From Desulfotignum sp. (GTDB taxonomy: Bacteria; Desulfobacterota; Desulfobacteria; Desulfobacterales; Desulfobacteraceae), in the NCBI GenBank assembly GCA_011390615.1, contig JAABSB010000004.1, forward strand, positions 1 to 49,008: DNA of 49,008 nucleotides. Direction: 5' to 3'. Below the pieces are notes generated by a model. That model made no database searches. It was not told the origin of the DNA and saw only the letters and a list, made by a program, of their open reading frames with translations. Of this stretch, positions 27,429 to 39,887 are shown one piece after another. The position numbers were made by a program, and so were the translations under genes. Numbering within the stretch: the first letter of the stretch is position 1; the number at the start of each line of letters is the position of its first letter.

Positions 27429-27463
27429 TAATGGCCGGAACCTGGAACAGGTTCCGGCCATTA
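27429..27463 (+). terminator. Perfect 16-bp stem hairpin after PFOR
   Basis: taatggccggaacctg-gaa-caggttccggccatta; no T tract. Confidence 0.55.
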
Positions 27464-27497: not shown

Positions 27498-29153
27498 ATG
27501 AACTTTGAGCGACTCAGAATACGCCTGATTATGGCATTTATGCTTGTGTCACTTGTTCCCCTGGCCTCTTTGGGATACAAGCTCATCTCCCAGGGAGAAA
27601 CCCTGATTGAAGAAAGGGCCTCCTCTTATCTGAACGGGCTGTCCAAACAGAACGCCGGGGCAATCAGGGAATTCATGCTGGAAAGGGTCAATGATCTCAA
27701 ACACCTGTCCGGTATGATCTGTATGCTTGATCCGGAGACTGCCGTACTTGCAGGGCATCTGGAACAGATGAAAGACCGGGTACCGTCCTACCTGGGATTT
27801 TTTGCTGGGGACAGGACAAAAAACATTTTCTTTTCCACCCGGGATCCTGCCATGGATCCGCTTCTGGATCAGCAGGCGGTGACGCACACATGGATGGGTG
27901 CTTCATTTACCGATATTTTTGCATTTCCCCTTGGGGAAAAAAAAATACCCGCTTTGGTGGTCTGCACATCCATAGCAGCAACACCGGAAAAAAACTGCAC
28001 CAGGTTATGTGCGGTGATTGATTTTCGGTTTGTGGATCAGCTGCTGCGGAAAAGTAATATTGAAGATACAGGTGAAGTGTATCTGGTGGATGATACAGGC
28101 AGGTTTTTGTCTGCTTCACGGTTCGGGGCCAGGGCACTTGCAGACACCATTGCCATCGATCTTTCAGACGGCCGGGCCCACGGGCTGCATGAAATAAGAG
28201 ACTACAGAGGTGAGCAGGTGCTCCAGGCCTACCAGAGAGTGGACACCTTCCCCTGGTATGTGATGGCGGACCAGGATATGGCGGAAATTTTGAACCGCAT
28301 CAGAAACCTGGGGCGGGAGGCCATAATTTACGGACTGTTGACGGCCCTGGTTGTTTTCGGACTGGCGCTTTTTATTTCAACGGTTATCGTCAATATTTTA
28401 AAGGCCAAATACCAGTATGAAAAAGAGCTGGAGTTTCAGGTCATCCAGAAGGAAAAACTGGCATCATTGGGTCTTTTGACCTCCGGTCTTGCCCATGAAC
28501 TGAACACACCCCTTGCCAATGCCCTGCTCTATACCCAGATCGCAAAAGAAGAGCTGTCCGAATCCGGGGATGAAAAGGTGCATCAAAGGCTTGCCACAGT
28601 CATTGATGAGGTCAGGCGGGGCAGCACCATCATCAGAAACCTGCTGGATTTTTCCCGCCATTCCCAAAAAGACGATAACACAACCGACAGCAACAAGATT
28701 GTGGCAAAGCTGATGGATATCACCAGGCCTCATTGTGGGGCAAAACATATCAGGGTAACAGCAGAACTGGAACCGGCAATCCCTTTTGTAAATGCTGATG
28801 CAAGCACGTTTCAGGCCATATTGACCAACCTTGTGGCCAATGCGGTTGAAGCCATGGACAAAGGCGGGGTGCTCACGGTGAAAACACGGTATATACCGGC
28901 AGTTAAAAAAATAAAAATAGAGGTTGCAGATTCAGGACCCGGCATAGCCCCGGAAGAACTAAAAAAAATTTTTGATCCTTTTTTCACCACCAAAAAACCA
29001 GGGGACGGTATTGGACTCGGCCTTTTTGTCAGCTATGAAATGGCCAGAAAACTGGGGGGAGATATCAGGGTTATCAGCGCAACCAGAGAGCAGGCAAAAA
29101 GGCCGGGGACGGTTTTTACCCTTGAACTGCCTGCTGCACAGGATGTTTTATGA
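27498..29153 (+). CDS. Membrane sensor histidine kinase (Cache-like sensor)
   Basis: N-terminal TM, extracytoplasmic region, second TM; H-box GLAHELNTPLAN; N/G boxes NLVANAVEAM, DSGPGIAPEEL, GIGLGLFVS. Confidence 0.9.
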   Translation: MNFERLRIRLIMAFMLVSLVPLASLGYKLISQGETLIEERASSYLNGLSKQNAGAIREFMLERVNDLKHLSGMICMLDPETAVLAGHLEQMKDRVPSYLGFFAGDRTKNIFFSTRDPAMDPLLDQQAVTHTWMGASFTDIFAFPLGEKKIPALVVCTSIAATPEKNCTRLCAVIDFRFVDQLLRKSNIEDTGEVYLVDDTGRFLSASRFGARALADTIAIDLSDGRAHGLHEIRDYRGEQVLQAYQRVDTFPWYVMADQDMAEILNRIRNLGREAIIYGLLTALVVFGLALFISTVIVNILKAKYQYEKELEFQVIQKEKLASLGLLTSGLAHELNTPLANALLYTQIAKEELSESGDEKVHQRLATVIDEVRRGSTIIRNLLDFSRHSQKDDNTTDSNKIVAKLMDITRPHCGAKHIRVTAELEPAIPFVNADASTFQAILTNLVANAVEAMDKGGVLTVKTRYIPAVKKIKIEVADSGPGIAPEELKKIFDPFFTTKKPGDGIGLGLFVSYEMARKLGGDIRVISATREQAKRPGTVFTLELPAAQDVL

Positions 29154-30493
29154 AAAAATGTAAGATTCTGGTGGTTGAAGATGATGAAAAAATGAATCAG
29201 GGACTGGTGTATGTGCTTTCAAAACAGGGCTATGCCGTGACATCGGTTGATACCGGCGAAAAAGCATTGGAACAGATCAAAGACACCCGGTTTGACCTGG
29301 TTCTGTCAGATTTGAAACTTCCCGGTATTGATGGCAGCCAGCTTCTGCGTGCAGCCAGAAAATATGATCCGGATATGATGTTTATCATCATCACGGCATA
29401 CGGCACGGTTGATACGGCAGTATCTGCCATGAAGCAGGGGGCGGAAGACTATATCCTCAAACCCTTTGACATGGAAGAACTGCGGCTGGTCATCAAAAAA
29501 ACCCTGGAAAAGCGGCAGCTGGTTTTAAACAATCTCCGGCTGCAGCAGCAGCTGGAAAAAAAATATACCTTTGACAATATAGTGGGCACCAGTGAAGCAA
29601 TGATGGGGGTTTTCAAGGCCATCAATTTTGTCAAGGACGCACACGCCACCGTGCTGATAAAAGGAGAAACCGGCACAGGAAAGGAACTGGTTGCCAAGGC
29701 CATTCACTTTAATTCCCACAAGGCATCAAAACCCTATATTCCCGTCAATTGCGCCGCCCTCAATGAAAATCTGCTGGCCAGCGAATTGTTCGGCCATGTC
29801 AAAGGGGCATTCACCGGCGCCATCTCCGACAAAATGGGGTTTTTTGAGGCGGCTGACGGCGGCACCATATTTCTGGATGAAATCGGTGATATCGGCCCAG
29901 GCCTGCAGCAGACATTTTTGCGGGTCCTGGAAAACATGGAAATTCAGCCGGTTGGTTCCCATGAAACAAAAAAGGTGTCTGTCAGGGTCATTGCAGCCAC
30001 AAACAAGGACCTTGAGGCCATGGTTGAACAGGGCAGGTTCAGAAAAGATCTGTATTACCGGCTGCATGTGGTTGTAATCGACCTGCCGCCTTTACGGGAG
30101 CGGCAAGGGGATATCAGTCTTCTGGCACACCATTTTTTGCACCAGTATTGTGCCGGCAACAACAAATCAATCACCGCCATCTCACAGGCGGTATTAAAAA
30201 AGCTGGAGGCATATCCCTGGCCCGGAAATGTAAGAGAGCTTGAAAATATCATTGAACGGGCCACGCTTTTTGAAACAGGCCCTAAACTGACCCTGAACAG
30301 CCTGCCCCATGCATTGATCAGACAGGATACTAAGAAAGATGCCAGCGATATCCATTCTCTGGAACAATTGAGCAGGCACCATATCTGCAAGGTTCTGGAA
30401 AAAACAAACCGGAACAAAACCCGGGCATCCAGACTGCTGGGCATTGACCGGTCCACCCTGTGGCGCATCATGAACCGCCTGGACATAAAATAG
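29150..30493 (+). CDS. Sigma-54-dependent response regulator (NtrC-type)
   Basis: Receiver domain ILVVEDDEKM...DLVLSDLKLPG; AAA+ GETGTGKE, GAFTGA, C-terminal Fis-type HTH. ATGA overlap with kinase. Confidence 0.95.
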   Translation: MKKCKILVVEDDEKMNQGLVYVLSKQGYAVTSVDTGEKALEQIKDTRFDLVLSDLKLPGIDGSQLLRAARKYDPDMMFIIITAYGTVDTAVSAMKQGAEDYILKPFDMEELRLVIKKTLEKRQLVLNNLRLQQQLEKKYTFDNIVGTSEAMMGVFKAINFVKDAHATVLIKGETGTGKELVAKAIHFNSHKASKPYIPVNCAALNENLLASELFGHVKGAFTGAISDKMGFFEAADGGTIFLDEIGDIGPGLQQTFLRVLENMEIQPVGSHETKKVSVRVIAATNKDLEAMVEQGRFRKDLYYRLHVVVIDLPPLRERQGDISLLAHHFLHQYCAGNNKSITAISQAVLKKLEAYPWPGNVRELENIIERATLFETGPKLTLNSLPHALIRQDTKKDASDIHSLEQLSRHHICKVLEKTNRNKTRASRLLGIDRSTLWRIMNRLDIK

Positions 30494-30495
30494 TG

Positions 30496-30527
30496 TTGCA
30501 CATTGCATCACCTGATGCAGTATGCAA
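30496..30527. promoter_or_regulatory. 32-bp dyad, candidate enhancer (UAS)
   Basis: TTGCACATTGCATCA-CC-TGATGCAGTATGCAA; 13 of 15 positions match between arms. Confidence 0.6.
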
Positions 30528-30616
30528 TAGTTTCGCCGGTTTCCTTCTTCCTTATTTTACCAATGTATTTTCTGTAACATATTATATTTAATGGTTTTTT
30601 GTTTCTTTTCTGTCCA

Positions 30617-30632
30617 TGGCATAAACATTGCT
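30617..30632 (+). promoter_or_regulatory. Sigma-54 promoter upstream of HEAT-pnt operon
   Basis: TGGCATAAACATTGCT, GG-N10-GC, about 110 bp upstream of ATG 30744. Confidence 0.75.
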
Positions 30633-30743
30633 CTTGGTATGTGCCGGCAGATCCTGTATTGTTATGTGCCGGTATCGGCAGATGTCCGGTCTCCGGCAGT
30701 GCAGGGCAATAAAATACCACGTAAAAAAAGCAAAGGATGCCCT

Positions 30744-31193
30744 ATGGAAAACAACGTTTTTGGAAACCTGATGGATTGGGGGTCTGTTCTGGAAAAACTG
30801 GAAAGACTGTCCCGTACCGGTGAACTGGGATACTGCCAGGATGAATTGATCCGCCTGCTCAGGTTTGATCATAACTGGCGGCTGCGGGAGGCTGCCATCG
30901 AGGCATTGCCGTTTGTTGAAAATCCGGGCCTGGACCTGGCACAGGAGGTTCTTTTGTTAATAAAGCGCAGGGATCTGTATTATGATATCAGAATTCTGGC
31001 AACAGACAGCTTTGAAAAAATAGCGCGTGCCATGGTGAAGAATCCTGACATTGATAAAGACAGATTACAGGCATTTTTCACTGCCGCCATAAAAGATCTC
31101 AACGCCCTGCTTTCCTCTCCTGAACCACCGATATTTTACACCGCTTTGCAGCAGTGTGCCGGCCAGATCAAAAAAACAGCATCAGATCTGTAG
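30744..31193 (+). CDS. HEAT-repeat-like protein
   Basis: Helical repeats such as HNWRLREAAIEALPFVENPG; CCTATGG start context. Confidence 0.55.
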   Translation: MENNVFGNLMDWGSVLEKLERLSRTGELGYCQDELIRLLRFDHNWRLREAAIEALPFVENPGLDLAQEVLLLIKRRDLYYDIRILATDSFEKIARAMVKNPDIDKDRLQAFFTAAIKDLNALLSSPEPPIFYTALQQCAGQIKKTASDL

Positions 31194-31245: not shown

Positions 31246-32409
31246 ATGTTGATCGGGATACCCAAAGAGATCATGTACAAGGAAAACCGGGTTGCAGCAC
31301 TTCCGGAAACCATTGAAAAATTCATAAAACTGGGATTTGACGTGCTTGTGGAAACAAAGGCCGGTGCCGGGGTTTTTGTGGATGATGACCACTACCGCAG
31401 TGCCGGGGCCGACATTGCAGCAGACGCTGCCCAGGTGTTTGAAAAGGCGGATATTATTTTAAAGGTGAAAGAACCCTTGTTCAATGAACAGTTCAACACC
31501 CATGAGATAGACATGATAAAGGAAAACACCATCCTCATCACCTTTCTGCACCCGGCTGCACCATCCAATCATAATGATGTGAAAAAGCTGCAGAAGCGGC
31601 ATATCACGGCATTTACCATGGATGGTATTCCCAGGATTTCCCGGGCCCAGCGCATGGATCCGCTGACATCCATGAGTGCCATTACAGGCTATAAATCCAT
31701 TATCATTGCAGCAGCCAATTTCCCGAAATTCGTACCCATGATCGGTACCTCCATCGGCATGATAAAACCTGCCAATATCCTGGTGATCGGCACGGGTGTG
31801 GTGGGTCTCCAGGCCATTGCCACAGGCAAACGGCTGGGGGGGGTGGTCAAGGCGGTGGATATCCGGCCGGATGCAAAAAAAGAGGCGGAAAGCCTTGGGG
31901 TCAAAGTGGTGGGATTTGATGCCCCGCCGGAACTTGTGATCGGAGACGGCGGGTATGCAAAAGCCCTTTCCGACGACTGGCTTGAAAAAGAACGCCAGGC
32001 CCTGGCCCCCCTGGTGGCAGAGGCTGATATTATTGTCCTCAGCGCCCTGGTGCCCGGGGAGGTGGCCCAGACCCTGGTGACCCGGAAAATGGTGGAAACC
32101 ATGAAACCCGGTTCAGTGATTGTGGATGTCTCCATTGACCAGGGCGGCAATTGCGAGATCACCGACCCGGGAAAAGAGTTCATCCATAACGGGGTGTATA
32201 TCTGCGGTATTAAAAATATTCCGGGTTCGTTGCCCGTGCATTCCTCCTGGCTGTACGCCAACAACCTGTATTATTTTGTGGAAAACCTGTTTAAAAACAA
32301 GGCAACCGATTTTGATATGACAGATGAGATCATCAAAGACTCCCTGGTGACCCATAAAGGAGAGCTGTTCCATAAGGGTACCAGAAAAGCCATGGGCCTG
32401 TCTGATTAA
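31246..32409 (+). CDS. pntAA: Transhydrogenase subunit alpha, domain I
   Basis: PRISRAQRMDPLTSM loop, NAD fold VIGTGVVGLQAIATGKRLGGVVKAVDIRPD. Confidence 0.9.
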   Translation: MLIGIPKEIMYKENRVAALPETIEKFIKLGFDVLVETKAGAGVFVDDDHYRSAGADIAADAAQVFEKADIILKVKEPLFNEQFNTHEIDMIKENTILITFLHPAAPSNHNDVKKLQKRHITAFTMDGIPRISRAQRMDPLTSMSAITGYKSIIIAAANFPKFVPMIGTSIGMIKPANILVIGTGVVGLQAIATGKRLGGVVKAVDIRPDAKKEAESLGVKVVGFDAPPELVIGDGGYAKALSDDWLEKERQALAPLVAEADIIVLSALVPGEVAQTLVTRKMVETMKPGSVIVDVSIDQGGNCEITDPGKEFIHNGVYICGIKNIPGSLPVHSSWLYANNLYYFVENLFKNKATDFDMTDEIIKDSLVTHKGELFHKGTRKAMGLSD

Positions 32410-32441: not shown

Positions 32442-32738
32442 ATGACAAATCTATTATTGATGGCAGGGGTGTTTGTTTTTTCCTTTGTGGTGGGGTATTT
32501 TCTGATCTCCCGCATCCCGACCCTGCTGCACACCCCGCTGATGTCCATGACAAACGCCATATCCGCAGTCACCATTCTGGGGGTGTTGATTCTTTTTTCC
32601 GTCACATCCACACGGTCTGAACAAATCATCGGATCTGTGGCCTTTATCATGGCTGCCTTCAACCTGGTGGGTGGATTTGCCATAACCGACCGGATGCTGC
32701 GCATGTTCAGGAAAAAGCAGAGGGAGGGGAAAAAATAA
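32442..32738 (+). CDS. pntAB: Transhydrogenase subunit alpha, membrane part
   Basis: Three-TM small protein with HTPLMSMTNAISAVTILG. Confidence 0.9.
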   Translation: MTNLLLMAGVFVFSFVVGYFLISRIPTLLHTPLMSMTNAISAVTILGVLILFSVTSTRSEQIIGSVAFIMAAFNLVGGFAITDRMLRMFRKKQREGKK

Positions 32739-34774
32739 TGCCACAGACATATGCTTTTGGGAACCTGGTTCTGGATTTTTGTGTCATCGGTATTCTGATC
32801 CTGGGGATATGGCTGTTCCGCCGGCCCTTTCTGGCAAAATACGGTAACCTTGCGGCCGCCTTTGCCCTGTTGTGTGCCGCAATCCTGGTGATTTCCCGGA
32901 ACGGGATCATGCATCCTAATATTGTGGTGTTCTGCCTTCTGGCCGGGGCAGTTCCCGGGGTTTGGGTGGCCAGAAAGATCACCATGATCCAGATTCCGGC
33001 CATGGTGGCGTTCCAGCACGGTGCTGGCGGGATTGCAGCGTTTTTTCTTTCCCTTGCAGAGCTGATGCGCGGCTTTGAGCACCTGGGGGCCATGAATGAA
33101 ATATCCGGTCTTCTGGGTCTGGCCATCGGTGCACTGACCTTTTCCGGCAGCATGGTTGCCGCAGGCAAGCTGTCAGGCAGGCTGGGGCAGACCCCGACCA
33201 TTCTGCCGCACCATACCCGGCTTGTCATGGCAAACCTGGGGGCCATGATTGTATTGGTCATTGCCGCATTTTTTGCACCGGCCGGGGCTGTTCTGGTGTT
33301 TTATCTGCTCATCATCGTCCTTTCCATCCTGTTCGGCATTGTGTTCTCCATCCGTATCGGCGGGGCGGACATGCCGGTGCTCATCTCCTTTTTAAACGCC
33401 ACTGCAGGGGTGGCAGCCGCCTTTTGCGGCATGATTATCGAGAACCAGCTGCTGATCGCCTGCGGGGCCACCGTGGCCGCTTCCGGGTCTATCCTTACAC
33501 ATGTGATGTGCAAGGCCATGAACCGCAGCCTTTTCCATGTATTTGTACCGAAAAAAAGGCCTGAAAAATCTGGTGCCGGTTCGGGTACAGAACCTGATAC
33601 ACCTGCCCTGTCCGGTCTTGCACCGCCTGCGGCGGAACAGGCCCCAAAAGTGGAAAAACCGGCATCCAATCCTTTTGAAACGGCAGCGGACCTGGCCCGC
33701 AATGCTGAAACGGTTATTATTGTGCCTGGATACGGCATGGCGGTTGCCCAGGCCCAGTTTGATGTGATCGAGCTGTCCAGCAAACTGGTTTCCATGGGAA
33801 AAAAGGTGGTCTTTGCCATTCATCCGGTGGCCGGACGTATGCCGGGCCACATGAATGTCCTCCTGGCCGAGGCCGGGGTGGATTATGATATGCTGGCGGA
33901 AATGGATGATATCAATCCTGCATTCAGCCAGACCGATCTGTGTTTTGTGATCGGGGCCTGCGATGTGGTGAACCCGGCAGCCATGGAAACGGACGGATCT
34001 CCCATATCCGGCATGCCCATTTTACGCAGCCATGAAGCAAAACATGTGGTGTGCTGTAACCTGGATGACAAACCAGGGTATTCCGGGGTTGAAAACTCCC
34101 TGTATAAAAACAGCAACACCGTCATGCTGCTGGGAAATGCCAAAGAAACCATCCGGCAGGTTGTGGAAAACCTGTCAGAAGAACAGCCACATGAAAAGGG
34201 TGCCCGTTCAGAAACCGGCACCGGGATCCAACCCCAGGACAGGAAGCAGGAAAATTTTCTGGATGCTGCCGTGGTACAATTGGTGTCAGCCCAAAAAATT
34301 ATTATCATACCCGGCTATGGCATGGCACTGGCCCAGGCCCAGTTCAAGGTGGTGGAACTGGCTGATCTGCTGGCATCCATGGGGGCGCAGGTTGCATTTG
34401 CCATCCACCCGGTGGCCGGACGTATGCCGGGCCACATGAATGTGCTCCTGGCTGAAGCGGAAGTGGATTATGACAAACTGGTTGAAATGGATGACATCAA
34501 TCCGGCATTTTCCCAGACCGATGTGGCGCTGATATTCGGGGCCTGTGACGTGGTGAATCCGGCTGCCATGGAAACCGATGGCAGCCCCATATCCGGCATG
34601 CCCATACTCAGGGCCCATGAGGCAAAAACCGTGGTGGTCTGCAATTTTGACGCAAACCCCGGCTATTCAGGGGTGGACAACACCCTGTATGCTGATCCCA
34701 AAACCATCATGCTGCTGGGGGATGCTGCCGCCACAGCCAGTGATCTGATTGCCGGGGTAAAAAAAGCGCAATAG
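32738..34774 (+). CDS. pntB: Transhydrogenase subunit beta with two tandem domain III copies
   Basis: dII with MVAFQHGAGGIAA and ADMPVLISFLNATAG; two dIII copies each with PGYGMA-AQAQF, HPVAGRMPGHMNVLLAEA, GACDVVNPAAMETDGSPISGMPILR. Confidence 0.93.
   Translation: MPQTYAFGNLVLDFCVIGILILGIWLFRRPFLAKYGNLAAAFALLCAAILVISRNGIMHPNIVVFCLLAGAVPGVWVARKITMIQIPAMVAFQHGAGGIAAFFLSLAELMRGFEHLGAMNEISGLLGLAIGALTFSGSMVAAGKLSGRLGQTPTILPHHTRLVMANLGAMIVLVIAAFFAPAGAVLVFYLLIIVLSILFGIVFSIRIGGADMPVLISFLNATAGVAAAFCGMIIENQLLIACGATVAASGSILTHVMCKAMNRSLFHVFVPKKRPEKSGAGSGTEPDTPALSGLAPPAAEQAPKVEKPASNPFETAADLARNAETVIIVPGYGMAVAQAQFDVIELSSKLVSMGKKVVFAIHPVAGRMPGHMNVLLAEAGVDYDMLAEMDDINPAFSQTDLCFVIGACDVVNPAAMETDGSPISGMPILRSHEAKHVVCCNLDDKPGYSGVENSLYKNSNTVMLLGNAKETIRQVVENLSEEQPHEKGARSETGTGIQPQDRKQENFLDAAVVQLVSAQKIIIIPGYGMALAQAQFKVVELADLLASMGAQVAFAIHPVAGRMPGHMNVLLAEAEVDYDKLVEMDDINPAFSQTDVALIFGACDVVNPAAMETDGSPISGMPILRAHEAKTVVVCNFDANPGYSGVDNTLYADPKTIMLLGDAAATASDLIAGVKKAQ
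33690..34170 (+). repeat. Domain III copy 1 of pntB (approximate limits)
   Basis: Protein-level repeat with copy 2; DNA identity block 33824-33858. Confidence 0.85.
34255..34771 (+). repeat. Domain III copy 2 of pntB (approximate limits)
   Basis: Protein-level repeat with copy 1; DNA identity block 34409-34443. Confidence 0.85.
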
Positions 34775-37066: not shown

Positions 37067-37112
37067 TTAGGGTCAGGGTTGTTTGCTAACCTTCAAAGAT
37101 AAAGGAGAGATC

Positions 37113-37397
37113 ATGCTGGAAAAAAATATTTCATCAGGTCTTTGTGCCAATTGCATACATGCGGGACAATGCGGTTTTATGAAAAACAATACCAGGCCCA
37201 TAATTTTTTGTGAAGAGTTTTCCTGCGCCTGCCCGGAAGGCACATGCGCACAACCCATTGCAGAGATAACAGCACCATTGGCTGCAGTCAATGGATCATC
37301 CCGGGAAAATATCTGCAGCAATTGTGAAAACCTGGAAACCTGCTGCCTGCAGGAAAAACACCATGACACAGTGATGTGCTGTGAAGAATACAGGTGA
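37113..37397 (+). CDS. Small Cys-rich protein with tandem CxxC motifs
   Basis: SGLCANCIHAGQCGFMKNNTRPIIFCEEFSC and ENICSNCENLETCCLQEKHHDTVMCCEEYR; SD aaaggagag. Confidence 0.75.
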   Translation: MLEKNISSGLCANCIHAGQCGFMKNNTRPIIFCEEFSCACPEGTCAQPIAEITAPLAAVNGSSRENICSNCENLETCCLQEKHHDTVMCCEEYR

Positions 37398-38556
37398 TAT
37401 CCAAAAAAAAATTGCTGCCCTTGAAAAGCAGAACAGGAAACTGCAGCAGTTTTATGATGCATACCAGCAGGTGCAAAGCAATGAAAAAGAACGGGTAAAA
37501 GAACTTAACTGTTTGTACCAGGTCGCCCAGTGTGTGGTACTGGAAAGAAACACCACCGCTGCATTGAAAAAGATTGTTCACATCATTCCCACAGGCTGGC
37601 AGTTTTCCCAAAACTGCTGTGCCCGGATTCGGTTCAAAGAAAACATTTATCTGTCCTTTGAATTTTTTGCATCAGATATATGTCAGTCAGAAGACATATG
37701 CATCGACAATGAGGCTGTGGGGGCCATAGATGTGTGTTATCACCCGGATGCCGTTGCCGGAACAGCAGATCCTTTTTTAAGCGAAGAACGGAATCTGCTC
37801 AAAGGCATTGCCAACATCATCAGTTTTTATATAAAAAAACAAAAAGATGATGAAGCCAGAAAAATAATTCAAAAACAATTGCTGCACAATGATCGTCTGG
37901 CCACCATCGGCCGCCTGGCAGCCGGCGTGGCCCATGAATTAAATGAACCTTTGGGCAATATTCTAGGCCTGGCACAGCTGTCACGCAAGTTGCCCAACCT
38001 TCCGGAACAGGCAAGAAACGATCTTACCCGGATCCAGGAATGTGTGATGTATTCACGGGAAATTATAAAAAAACTTCTCGCGTTTTCCCGTAACGCCCCT
38101 GTGCACAAAGAAAAAATCTGCCTGAACCATGTGATCGAAAACAGCCTCACGTTTCTGGTGGCCCGGTGTGCCAGGGAAGGGATCGCCATTGAAAAGCGGT
38201 TCCAGGAGAATCTGTTTGTCATGGCAGATGCCAACCAGATAACACAGGTGGTTACCAATCTGACCATCAATGCTGTACAGGCCATGGAAAACGGTGGGAA
38301 AATCACACTGACCGTAAAAAAAACTGCAGACAAAGCGGTTTTTTCCATTGAAGATACCGGGGTCGGAATACCGGGCGAGCATATCAGCAGTGCGTTTATG
38401 CCGTTTTTTACCACAAAGGATGTGGACCAGGGCACCGGCCTGGGACTTTCTGTTGTGTACGGCATTGTTAAAAACCATGATGGTGATATAAAGGTCAGCA
38501 GTGAGCCTGGAAAAGGCAGTGTTTTTGAAATATCACTGCCGCTGGAGAGCGATTGA
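37381..38556 (+). CDS. Cytoplasmic sensor histidine kinase (GAF-like sensor)
   Basis: H-box GVAHELNEPLGN, NLTINAVQAM, DTGVGIPGEH, GTGLGLSVVYG; GTG start overlaps the Cys-rich gene. Confidence 0.9.
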   Translation: MKNTGDIQKKIAALEKQNRKLQQFYDAYQQVQSNEKERVKELNCLYQVAQCVVLERNTTAALKKIVHIIPTGWQFSQNCCARIRFKENIYLSFEFFASDICQSEDICIDNEAVGAIDVCYHPDAVAGTADPFLSEERNLLKGIANIISFYIKKQKDDEARKIIQKQLLHNDRLATIGRLAAGVAHELNEPLGNILGLAQLSRKLPNLPEQARNDLTRIQECVMYSREIIKKLLAFSRNAPVHKEKICLNHVIENSLTFLVARCAREGIAIEKRFQENLFVMADANQITQVVTNLTINAVQAMENGGKITLTVKKTADKAVFSIEDTGVGIPGEHISSAFMPFFTTKDVDQGTGLGLSVVYGIVKNHDGDIKVSSEPGKGSVFEISLPLESD

Positions 38557-39887
38557 TGTCGGACAAAAAATCAAAGGCACAGATTCTGGTTGTGGATGAC
38601 AACAAGATTACCTGTGAGGTCATTCAAAGAAACCTTGCATCTGAAGGATACCGTGTGTTTCTTGCCCATAATGTGGAAGATGCGGCTGCTGTTCTTTCCC
38701 GCCAGGATATTGATCTGCTGATCACCGATTATAAGATGCCCCGGCTGACCGGACTGGATATGATCCAATATGCCCGGGATCATTTCCAGGACCTGGGGAT
38801 CATAATGCTTACAGGGTACGGGTCCATTAAAGGGGCTGTGTCAGCCCTGAAACAGGGGGCAGATGAATATATCACCAAGCCCTTCACTGATAAGGAACTT
38901 ATGGACACCGTGGCAAAATGCATAAAAAGATATCAGGAGCGCAGGATAGATCCTGGTATGCTCTATTCTGACACCTGGTCCCGCTTCGGTATTATTGGGC
39001 AGTCTGAAAAAATGCAGCATCTGTTTGCCGCCATAAAAAAAGCCGGTGAAAATGATGCCACAGTCCTGATACAAGGGGAAAGCGGGACAGGGAAGGAACT
39101 GGTGGCCAGGGCCATTCACTACAGCCATAAAACCAGGTCTGTCTATCCTTTTATTCCCTTCAACTGCCCAGGTGTTCCCCCGGCCCTTTTTGAAAGTGAA
39201 CTGTTCGGCCATGTGAAAGGGGCGTTTACCGGTGCGACACAGGACAGCAAAGGATTTTTCAGGGCAGCAGAAAACGGGGGCCTTTTTCTGGACGAAATCA
39301 GTGAACTGCCCTATGAACTCCAGGGAAAACTGCTCAGGGTGCTCCAGGAAAAAGAATATACCCGGGTTGGAGAAACCCGGCAGAATAAAGCAGATGTCAG
39401 GATTATGGCGGCCACCAATCAAAAACTCGAAGATCTGGTTGAAAAAGGATTGTTCCGCCAGGATCTGTTTTTCCGTATCAATGTCATCACTATTGATATT
39501 CCGCCGCTACGGGATCGGGGTGAAGATATTCTGCTGCTGGCAAAGCATTTTATTGTGAAGTATGCAAAACAGCTGGGAAAAAATGAACCGAAGCTCACAC
39601 AAAATGCCATTGCCGCCTTGGAAAATTATGCCTGGCCCGGAAATGTCAGGGAACTTGAAAACCTGATACACCGGAATCTGATAATGAATGATACACAATA
39701 TATGGACAGTGCTGCATTTCCGGCAGCAATGAAAAATACCATATCCCGGGAAAATACGGTTACCCTGAGCCTGTCGGAGATGACCAGAAAATATGTCAGG
39801 GAGGTGCTTGCCCACACCGGGGGAAACAAGGCAAAGGCATTACAAATACTGAAAATTGATCGCAAAACCCTGCTCAAAAAATTATAG
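38553..39887 (+). CDS. Sigma-54-dependent response regulator
   Basis: Receiver [13 protein letters not shown]+ [21 protein letters not shown]-type overlap with kinase. Confidence 0.95.

Follow-up and report, generated by a model that had tools for sequence, protein, structure and literature searches.

The region between a Cache kinase/NtrC-type regulator pair and the pnt genes of a Desulfotignum species very likely holds a sigma-54 switch. Within the window, by which we mean the whole 49,008-nucleotide stretch of DNA analysed here, sequence and conservation point to 30496-30527 as a remote enhancer with two dimer sites, to 30617-30632 as the sigma-54 promoter that it serves, and to the adjacent kinase and regulator as activators of the HEAT gene and, with it, of pntAA-AB-B. 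Such a switch would very probably turn on the HEAT protein, a small helical-repeat protein, along with a peculiar membrane transhydrogenase. As a type of switch this is textbook; the unusual part is the enzyme and the way in which enhancer and activator change together. The kinase/regulator pair, uncharacterised so far, would thereby be given a defined target, along with a 32-bp site open to testing.

By analogy with the NtrC family, the dCache kinase would sense an extracytoplasmic signal and phosphorylate the response regulator, which would bind the paired sites as dimers and oligomerise. The DNA would then loop back, possibly helped by the bending action of an IHF-like protein between the sites, and the GAFTGA element of the regulator would contact sigma-54 RNA polymerase to give the open complex. 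The transcript is predicted to start near 30643 and would cover HEAT and, where present, pntAA-AB-B.

The paired site and the promoter

The dyad, TTGCACATTGCATCA-CC-TGATGCAGTATGCAA, spans 32 bp (30496-30527), and its arms are complementary at 13 of 15 positions. It is better read as a pair of TGCAN3TGCA sites, 30497-30507 and 30516-30526, separated by 8 bp, and we annotate it without strand as an enhancer (UAS) with predicted regulator-binding sites, on the strength of this repeat and its conservation. The window's double site has no mismatch in 16 positions, and none of 300 shuffled sequences held an equally good one. The first-pass annotation had placed the dyad just past the regulator stop codon and about 90 bp before the promoter, as is indeed the case: the TAG lies at 30491-30493 and the gap to the promoter is 90 bp. 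It had also suggested looking for the dyad elsewhere in the genome. With up to three mismatches allowed, the dyad occurs once in the window (none expected from shuffles) and once in the whole 3.02 Mb genome. All genome-wide work consisted of pattern searches, and single sites (KTGCAN3TGCAM) numbered 12 in the genome against about 11.5 expected from a base-count estimate; at this chance level a wider regulon cannot be read from single sites.

The putative -24/-12 promoter TGGCATAAACATTGCT (30617-30632, + strand) has its GG at 30618-30619 and its GC at 30630-30631 with the canonical 10 bp between them (TGG-N10-GC), and scores near the top of a hand-made consensus scale. Its location and spacing are as first annotated, but the match by itself is at chance level: with one mismatch allowed, the consensus occurs 15 times in 49 kb versus 14.6 expected. 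The weight of the match therefore comes only from its conservation, an equivalent -24/-12 site being present in every clade-I and every clade-II locus, and the evidence originally offered for it was a mere suggestion. The genome encodes rpoN (PF04552, 200.8 bits, G000:C196). Sigma-70-like matches at 30556-30585 were considered and set aside; they score 9/12 and lie outside any block that most relatives conserve. The strict pattern TGGCA-N6-TTGCW has only one further match in the window (11045-11030, - strand), some 70 bp ahead of a gene for a CstA-like carbon starvation protein (10961-9189, - strand).

The regulator and its conserved target

The kinase gene (27498..29153, + strand) encodes a dCache_1-HisKA-HATPase sensor histidine kinase (Pfam dCache_1 1.5e-16, HisKA 3.5e-13, HATPase_c 6e-23). 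The regulator gene (29150..30493, + strand) overlaps its stop codon and encodes a response regulator of the NtrC type (Pfam Response_reg, Sigma54_activat 8.5e-68, HTH_8), comprising a receiver, a sigma-54 AAA+ domain with GAFTGA, and a Fis-type HTH. The top NCBIfam models are AtoS/ZraS for the kinase and AtoC for the regulator, all under their equivalog cut-offs (AtoS 190 of 646 bits, AtoC 467 of 714, ZraR 412 of 760), and the pair is accordingly assigned to neither AtoSC nor ZraSR.

Orthologues of the regulator, 67-95% identical, were found in 11 of 58 relatives. These 11 also have a HEAT gene of at least 44% identity, whereas the rest of the set has only remote HEAT relatives, so regulator and HEAT co-occur in 12 of 12 genomes. 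The nearest named genomes are Desulfotignum MAGs, whose HEAT protein is 97% identical. The paired site and promoter were kept in all 24 loci with the orthologous regulator, with 0-3 mismatches in 16 positions and a spacer of 7-10 bp, and each paired site precedes a strong -24/-12 element. These loci, which include named loci of the genome collection, come from 22 genomes (G027 and G023 contribute two copies each) and were chosen for carrying the orthologous regulator or the HEAT gene beside it; the regulator gene itself falls outside the contig in L081 and in one case from G023. A search of 59 genomes for TGCAN3TGCA-N8-TGCAN3TGCA with one mismatch returned a match upstream of HEAT in every regulator-bearing genome except G027, where the spacer is 7; there is one HEAT-linked match per genome, and two in G023. 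Reversed-pattern controls gave no match in the 59 genomes. Two off-target double sites with one mismatch (G028 at 447 kb, and G024) fit the few that chance predicts, and we discount them.

The layout of an NtrC-type enhancer, repeated dyads at looping distance from the promoter, is found in 24 of 24 loci, where the pairs lie 75-101 bp upstream, and the enhancer layout originally proposed for the window is borne out. The gap between the end of the second site and the TGG measures 75-81 bp in 19 loci, 90-92 bp in four and 101 bp in one. The three classes (about 79, 91 and 101 bp) are some 10-12 bp, or about one helical turn, apart, the phasing to be expected where a DNA loop has to bring activator and polymerase face to face, although two of them hold few loci (n=4 and n=1). 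The four-locus class, to which the window belongs, is the Desulfotignum group; coming from one genus, it represents few independent events.

Anchored on the TGG, the loci share a third conserved block at -31 to -18, with the clade consensus TTTACA-N5-TTA and a column information of 1.0-1.5 bits at -30..-28 and -19. Its core, CAR-N4-TTR, corresponds to the 3' portion of the WATCARN4TTR consensus for IHF and occurs in 13 of 21 clade-I loci, not including the window, where the block (30586..30600, no strand assigned) is degenerate. The exact IHF consensus was not found in clade I; the full WATCARN4TTR stands at the equivalent place in 4 of 11 clade-II loci. IHF is needed at sigma-54 promoters of Desulfovibrio vulgaris (PMC3897727), and by this analogy it might act here too, but given the degenerate block in the window such a role is a guess.

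These features resemble those of the NtrC, AtoC and ZraR systems, which share the receiver-AAA+(GAFTGA)-Fis HTH architecture, paired palindromic upstream sites, a -24/-12 promoter and, in most relatives, an IHF-like block between sites and promoter. The window pair, whose top NCBIfam matches are AtoS/AtoC and ZraS/ZraR, differs from AtoC, AtoS and ZraR in falling under the cut-offs, in its TGCAN3TGCA pair, and in a target that is HEAT(-pnt) rather than ato, zra or nitrogen genes. Another parallel from a sulfate reducer is orp1/orp2 of D. vulgaris (DVU2106 with sigma-54 and IHF; PMC3897727), where palindromic activator sites and an IHF site precede a sigma-54 promoter; activator, target and palindrome are different there, and IHF was tested, whereas in the window its site is conjectural and degenerate. 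The sigma-54 regulome and response-regulator maps of D. vulgaris (PMC4641369, PMC3333781) cover the same class of regulators and treat operons adjoining the regulator gene as probable targets. They differ in that regulators of Desulfobacterales fall outside their coverage, and their main text mentions neither a transhydrogenase nor the TGCA string.

In ten relatives, the stretch ahead of the kinase gene showed neither a sigma-54 nor a TGCA site, so autoregulation of this kind is probably absent and the regulator probably does not control its own gene through such a site. A TTTAGTTGTAGATGATATAAAAATG-like block is conserved upstream of the kinase in several of L077, L079, L082, L085, L090 and L091, and is probably the ordinary sigma-70 promoter of the pair. 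Between PFOR and the kinase lies a strong GC-rich hairpin, GGCCGGAACCTG-GAA-CAGGTTCCGGCC (27433-27459), likely a PFOR terminator or attenuator; relatives carry differing hairpins at the matching place after PFOR. Elsewhere in the window, 37083-39887 encodes a small Cys-rich protein (CxxC...CEEF/CEEY), a kinase, and a second NtrC-type regulator in succession; the N-terminal sensor of this kinase resembles that of the GAF/PAS activators that lie upstream of HEAT in clade II.

Activator exchange and rival explanations

In one genome (G028) the parts of the switch are physically separated. The regulator gene lies at 650 kb with another gene after it, HEAT-pnt lies 13 kb away at 664 kb, and it is HEAT, not the regulator, that has the perfect double site and the promoter in front of it. 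This arrangement indicates that the site belongs to the promoter and does not serve to terminate the regulator gene. A role of the dyad as terminator or as stem-loop at the 3' end of the kinase-regulator mRNA, instead of as enhancer, would fit its place 2 nt past the regulator stop codon and its good RNA fold (-18.9 kcal/mol, z -3.9). However, the hairpin lacks the 3' T-run that would yield the U-run of an intrinsic terminator, and a terminator scan does not list it. Moreover, in relatives the distance from stop codon to site varies between tens of nucleotides and about 200 nt, whereas that from site to promoter falls into narrow classes, and with the 13 kb of G028 we regard this explanation as highly improbable.

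Clade II, a sister group, comprises 11 loci (Desulfobacterales, Desulforhopalus) in which a GAF/PAS-type sigma-54 activator, matching the window regulator in the AAA+/HTH part only, is encoded upstream of HEAT. The sigma-54 promoter is kept in these loci, the TGCA pair is absent (6-8 mismatches), and GGGCGN4CGCCC sites are present around -90 and -160 to -170. Activator type and enhancer sequence differ together between the lineages, making this a case of joint change around a sigma-54 promoter that stays. In the HEAT tree the loci of each regulator type cluster together, and one change per type suffices, so the enhancer swap may have been a single event; this counts against our preferred explanation, as do the chance-level -24/-12 match taken alone and the degenerate IHF-like block. 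Most HEAT-pnt loci of Planctomycetota and Gemmatimonadota have an upstream kinase and receiver protein of another type, and no good sigma-54 site was seen at HEAT-pnt loci in these phyla.

The same comparison bears on the possibility that enhancer and promoter are real but that another regulator binds the dyad, the adjacent two-component system acting elsewhere. NtrC-type regulators are indeed numerous in genomes of this order (28 scored matches in most), but the enhancer sequence tracks the type of the adjacent activator gene, the regulator orthologue and the site co-occur in 12 of 12 genomes, and the double site has no second use beyond chance in 59 genomes. Control by some other regulator thus seems to us very unlikely.

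How far the predicted switch extends into pnt is less clear-cut. Four other Desulfotignum (L154, L155, L156, L162) carry the same PFOR-pntAA-AB-B-M23-MaoC locus without the HK-RR-UAS-P54-HEAT cassette, and no sigma-54 or TGCA site precedes pnt in these genomes. Since pnt adjoins PFOR there without the switch, it can be expressed otherwise, a further point against our preferred explanation. The whole cassette between PFOR and pntAA is a presence/absence polymorphism among Desulfotignum. Conversely, G020, G033 and G027 retain HK-RR-UAS-promoter-HEAT without intact pnt, with pnt remnants in G033 and, by resemblance, in G020, and pnt without the switch was found in G004, G008, G010, G011, G034, G041 and G031. 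Regulator, enhancer, promoter and HEAT thus form one unit, with pnt as its usual cargo. The complete genome G027 (L066, L067) contains two kinase-regulator-HEAT copies and a third, broken kinase-regulator copy, and lacks PntB.

These patterns, persistence of HEAT with its switch where intact pnt is missing and of pnt where the switch is missing, would also be expected if the switch mainly controls HEAT while most pnt expression comes from a different promoter or from PFOR read-through, the regulator not being the main controller of pnt. Yet the gap between HEAT and pntAA is only about 50 bp in the window, on the same strand, and pnt directly follows HEAT in most of 36 named loci from several phyla. 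We consider it unlikely that pnt chiefly escapes the switch, although this deserves more weight than the other alternatives. The initial proposal that the adjacent pair controls the transhydrogenase is consequently upheld for the link between enhancer, promoter and regulator, for which the 24 loci, G028 and the tracking of enhancer with activator all argue, but needs recasting as to the target, of which HEAT is the constant part and pnt a frequent cargo.

The HEAT protein and the altered transhydrogenase

The first gene of the operon (30744..31193, + strand) encodes a HEAT/ARM-like seven-helix protein of 149 residues. An alignment of the family has 31 invariant columns and backs the start at 30744 rather than 30591. 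The AF2 model (pLDDT 94) is an all-helical, seven-helix solenoid, and its nearest PDB folds are exclusively armadillo/HEAT repeats, with weak E-values. Since HEAT survives without pnt, it should be useful by itself; where both occur, it may act as adaptor to the tandem domains III described below.

Downstream on the + strand, Pfam identifies pntAA (31246..32409; domain I, AlaDh_PNT) and the four-TM pntAB (32442..32738; PNTB_4TM 1.8e-28). The pntB gene (32738..34774) encodes domain II followed by two tandem domains III (about 33677-34165 and 34259-34765), recognised as two PNTB stretches and by phmmer. In E. coli, K424-R425-S426 (KRS) is part of the NADPH site (PMC9529548). When aligned by phmmer to 4o9u, 9l76 and 6que, the window copies replace KRS by N-L-D and N-F-D, VCCNLDDKPGYSG and VVCNFDANPGYSG standing opposite VFKRSMNTGYAG, and the protein scores 527.5 of the 689 bits set for the NCBIfam equivalog of the canonical Re/Si-specific NAD(P)+ transhydrogenase. 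C-N-[LFY]-D precedes GYSGV in every domain III read, from HEAT-linked loci and from the tandem-type PntB of other relatives alike, and GANDTVN is changed to GACDVVN in nearly all of them, including both window copies. As a control, the ordinary single-domain-III PntB of G045 and G047 retains KRS. The Planctomycete members read have one domain III with the same motif change, and so the change may predate the tandem copies. In Desulforhopalus sp. IMCC35007 (L105), tblastn detects a single PntB region with three domains III in a row, +2981..+4624 from HEAT.

Like PntAB of E. coli and T. thermophilus and ovine NNT, these proteins have domains I, II and III; unlike them, many members carry two or three domains III in tandem, with N-[LFY]-D for KRS. 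From these replacements we infer that the nucleotide preference of these domains III is altered. We tentatively propose that the switch controls an undescribed branch of transhydrogenases, KRS-less and often with tandem (two or three) domains III that may bind NAD(H) or another ligand, served by a dedicated HEAT protein and kept under sigma-54 control while activators and enhancers were exchanged between lineages. The literature searched, which included few subscription papers, contained no report of sigma-54 control of such an operon or transhydrogenase, of a HEAT-Pnt link, or of tandem domains III. PntAB of Desulfobacterium autotrophicum has been counted as the usual membrane enzyme (PMC4969296). 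If our proposal is true, PntAB of such sulfate reducers would not be the NADPH source it is assumed to be. Members of this branch in sulfate reducers should be tested before they are classed as NADPH-producing PntAB. HEAT also has other neighbors: at a locus of G045 (L064 7940-11901), the place of pnt after HEAT is taken by a small Cys-rich protein, an isolated fragment of domain III and a quinol nitric oxide reductase-like protein.
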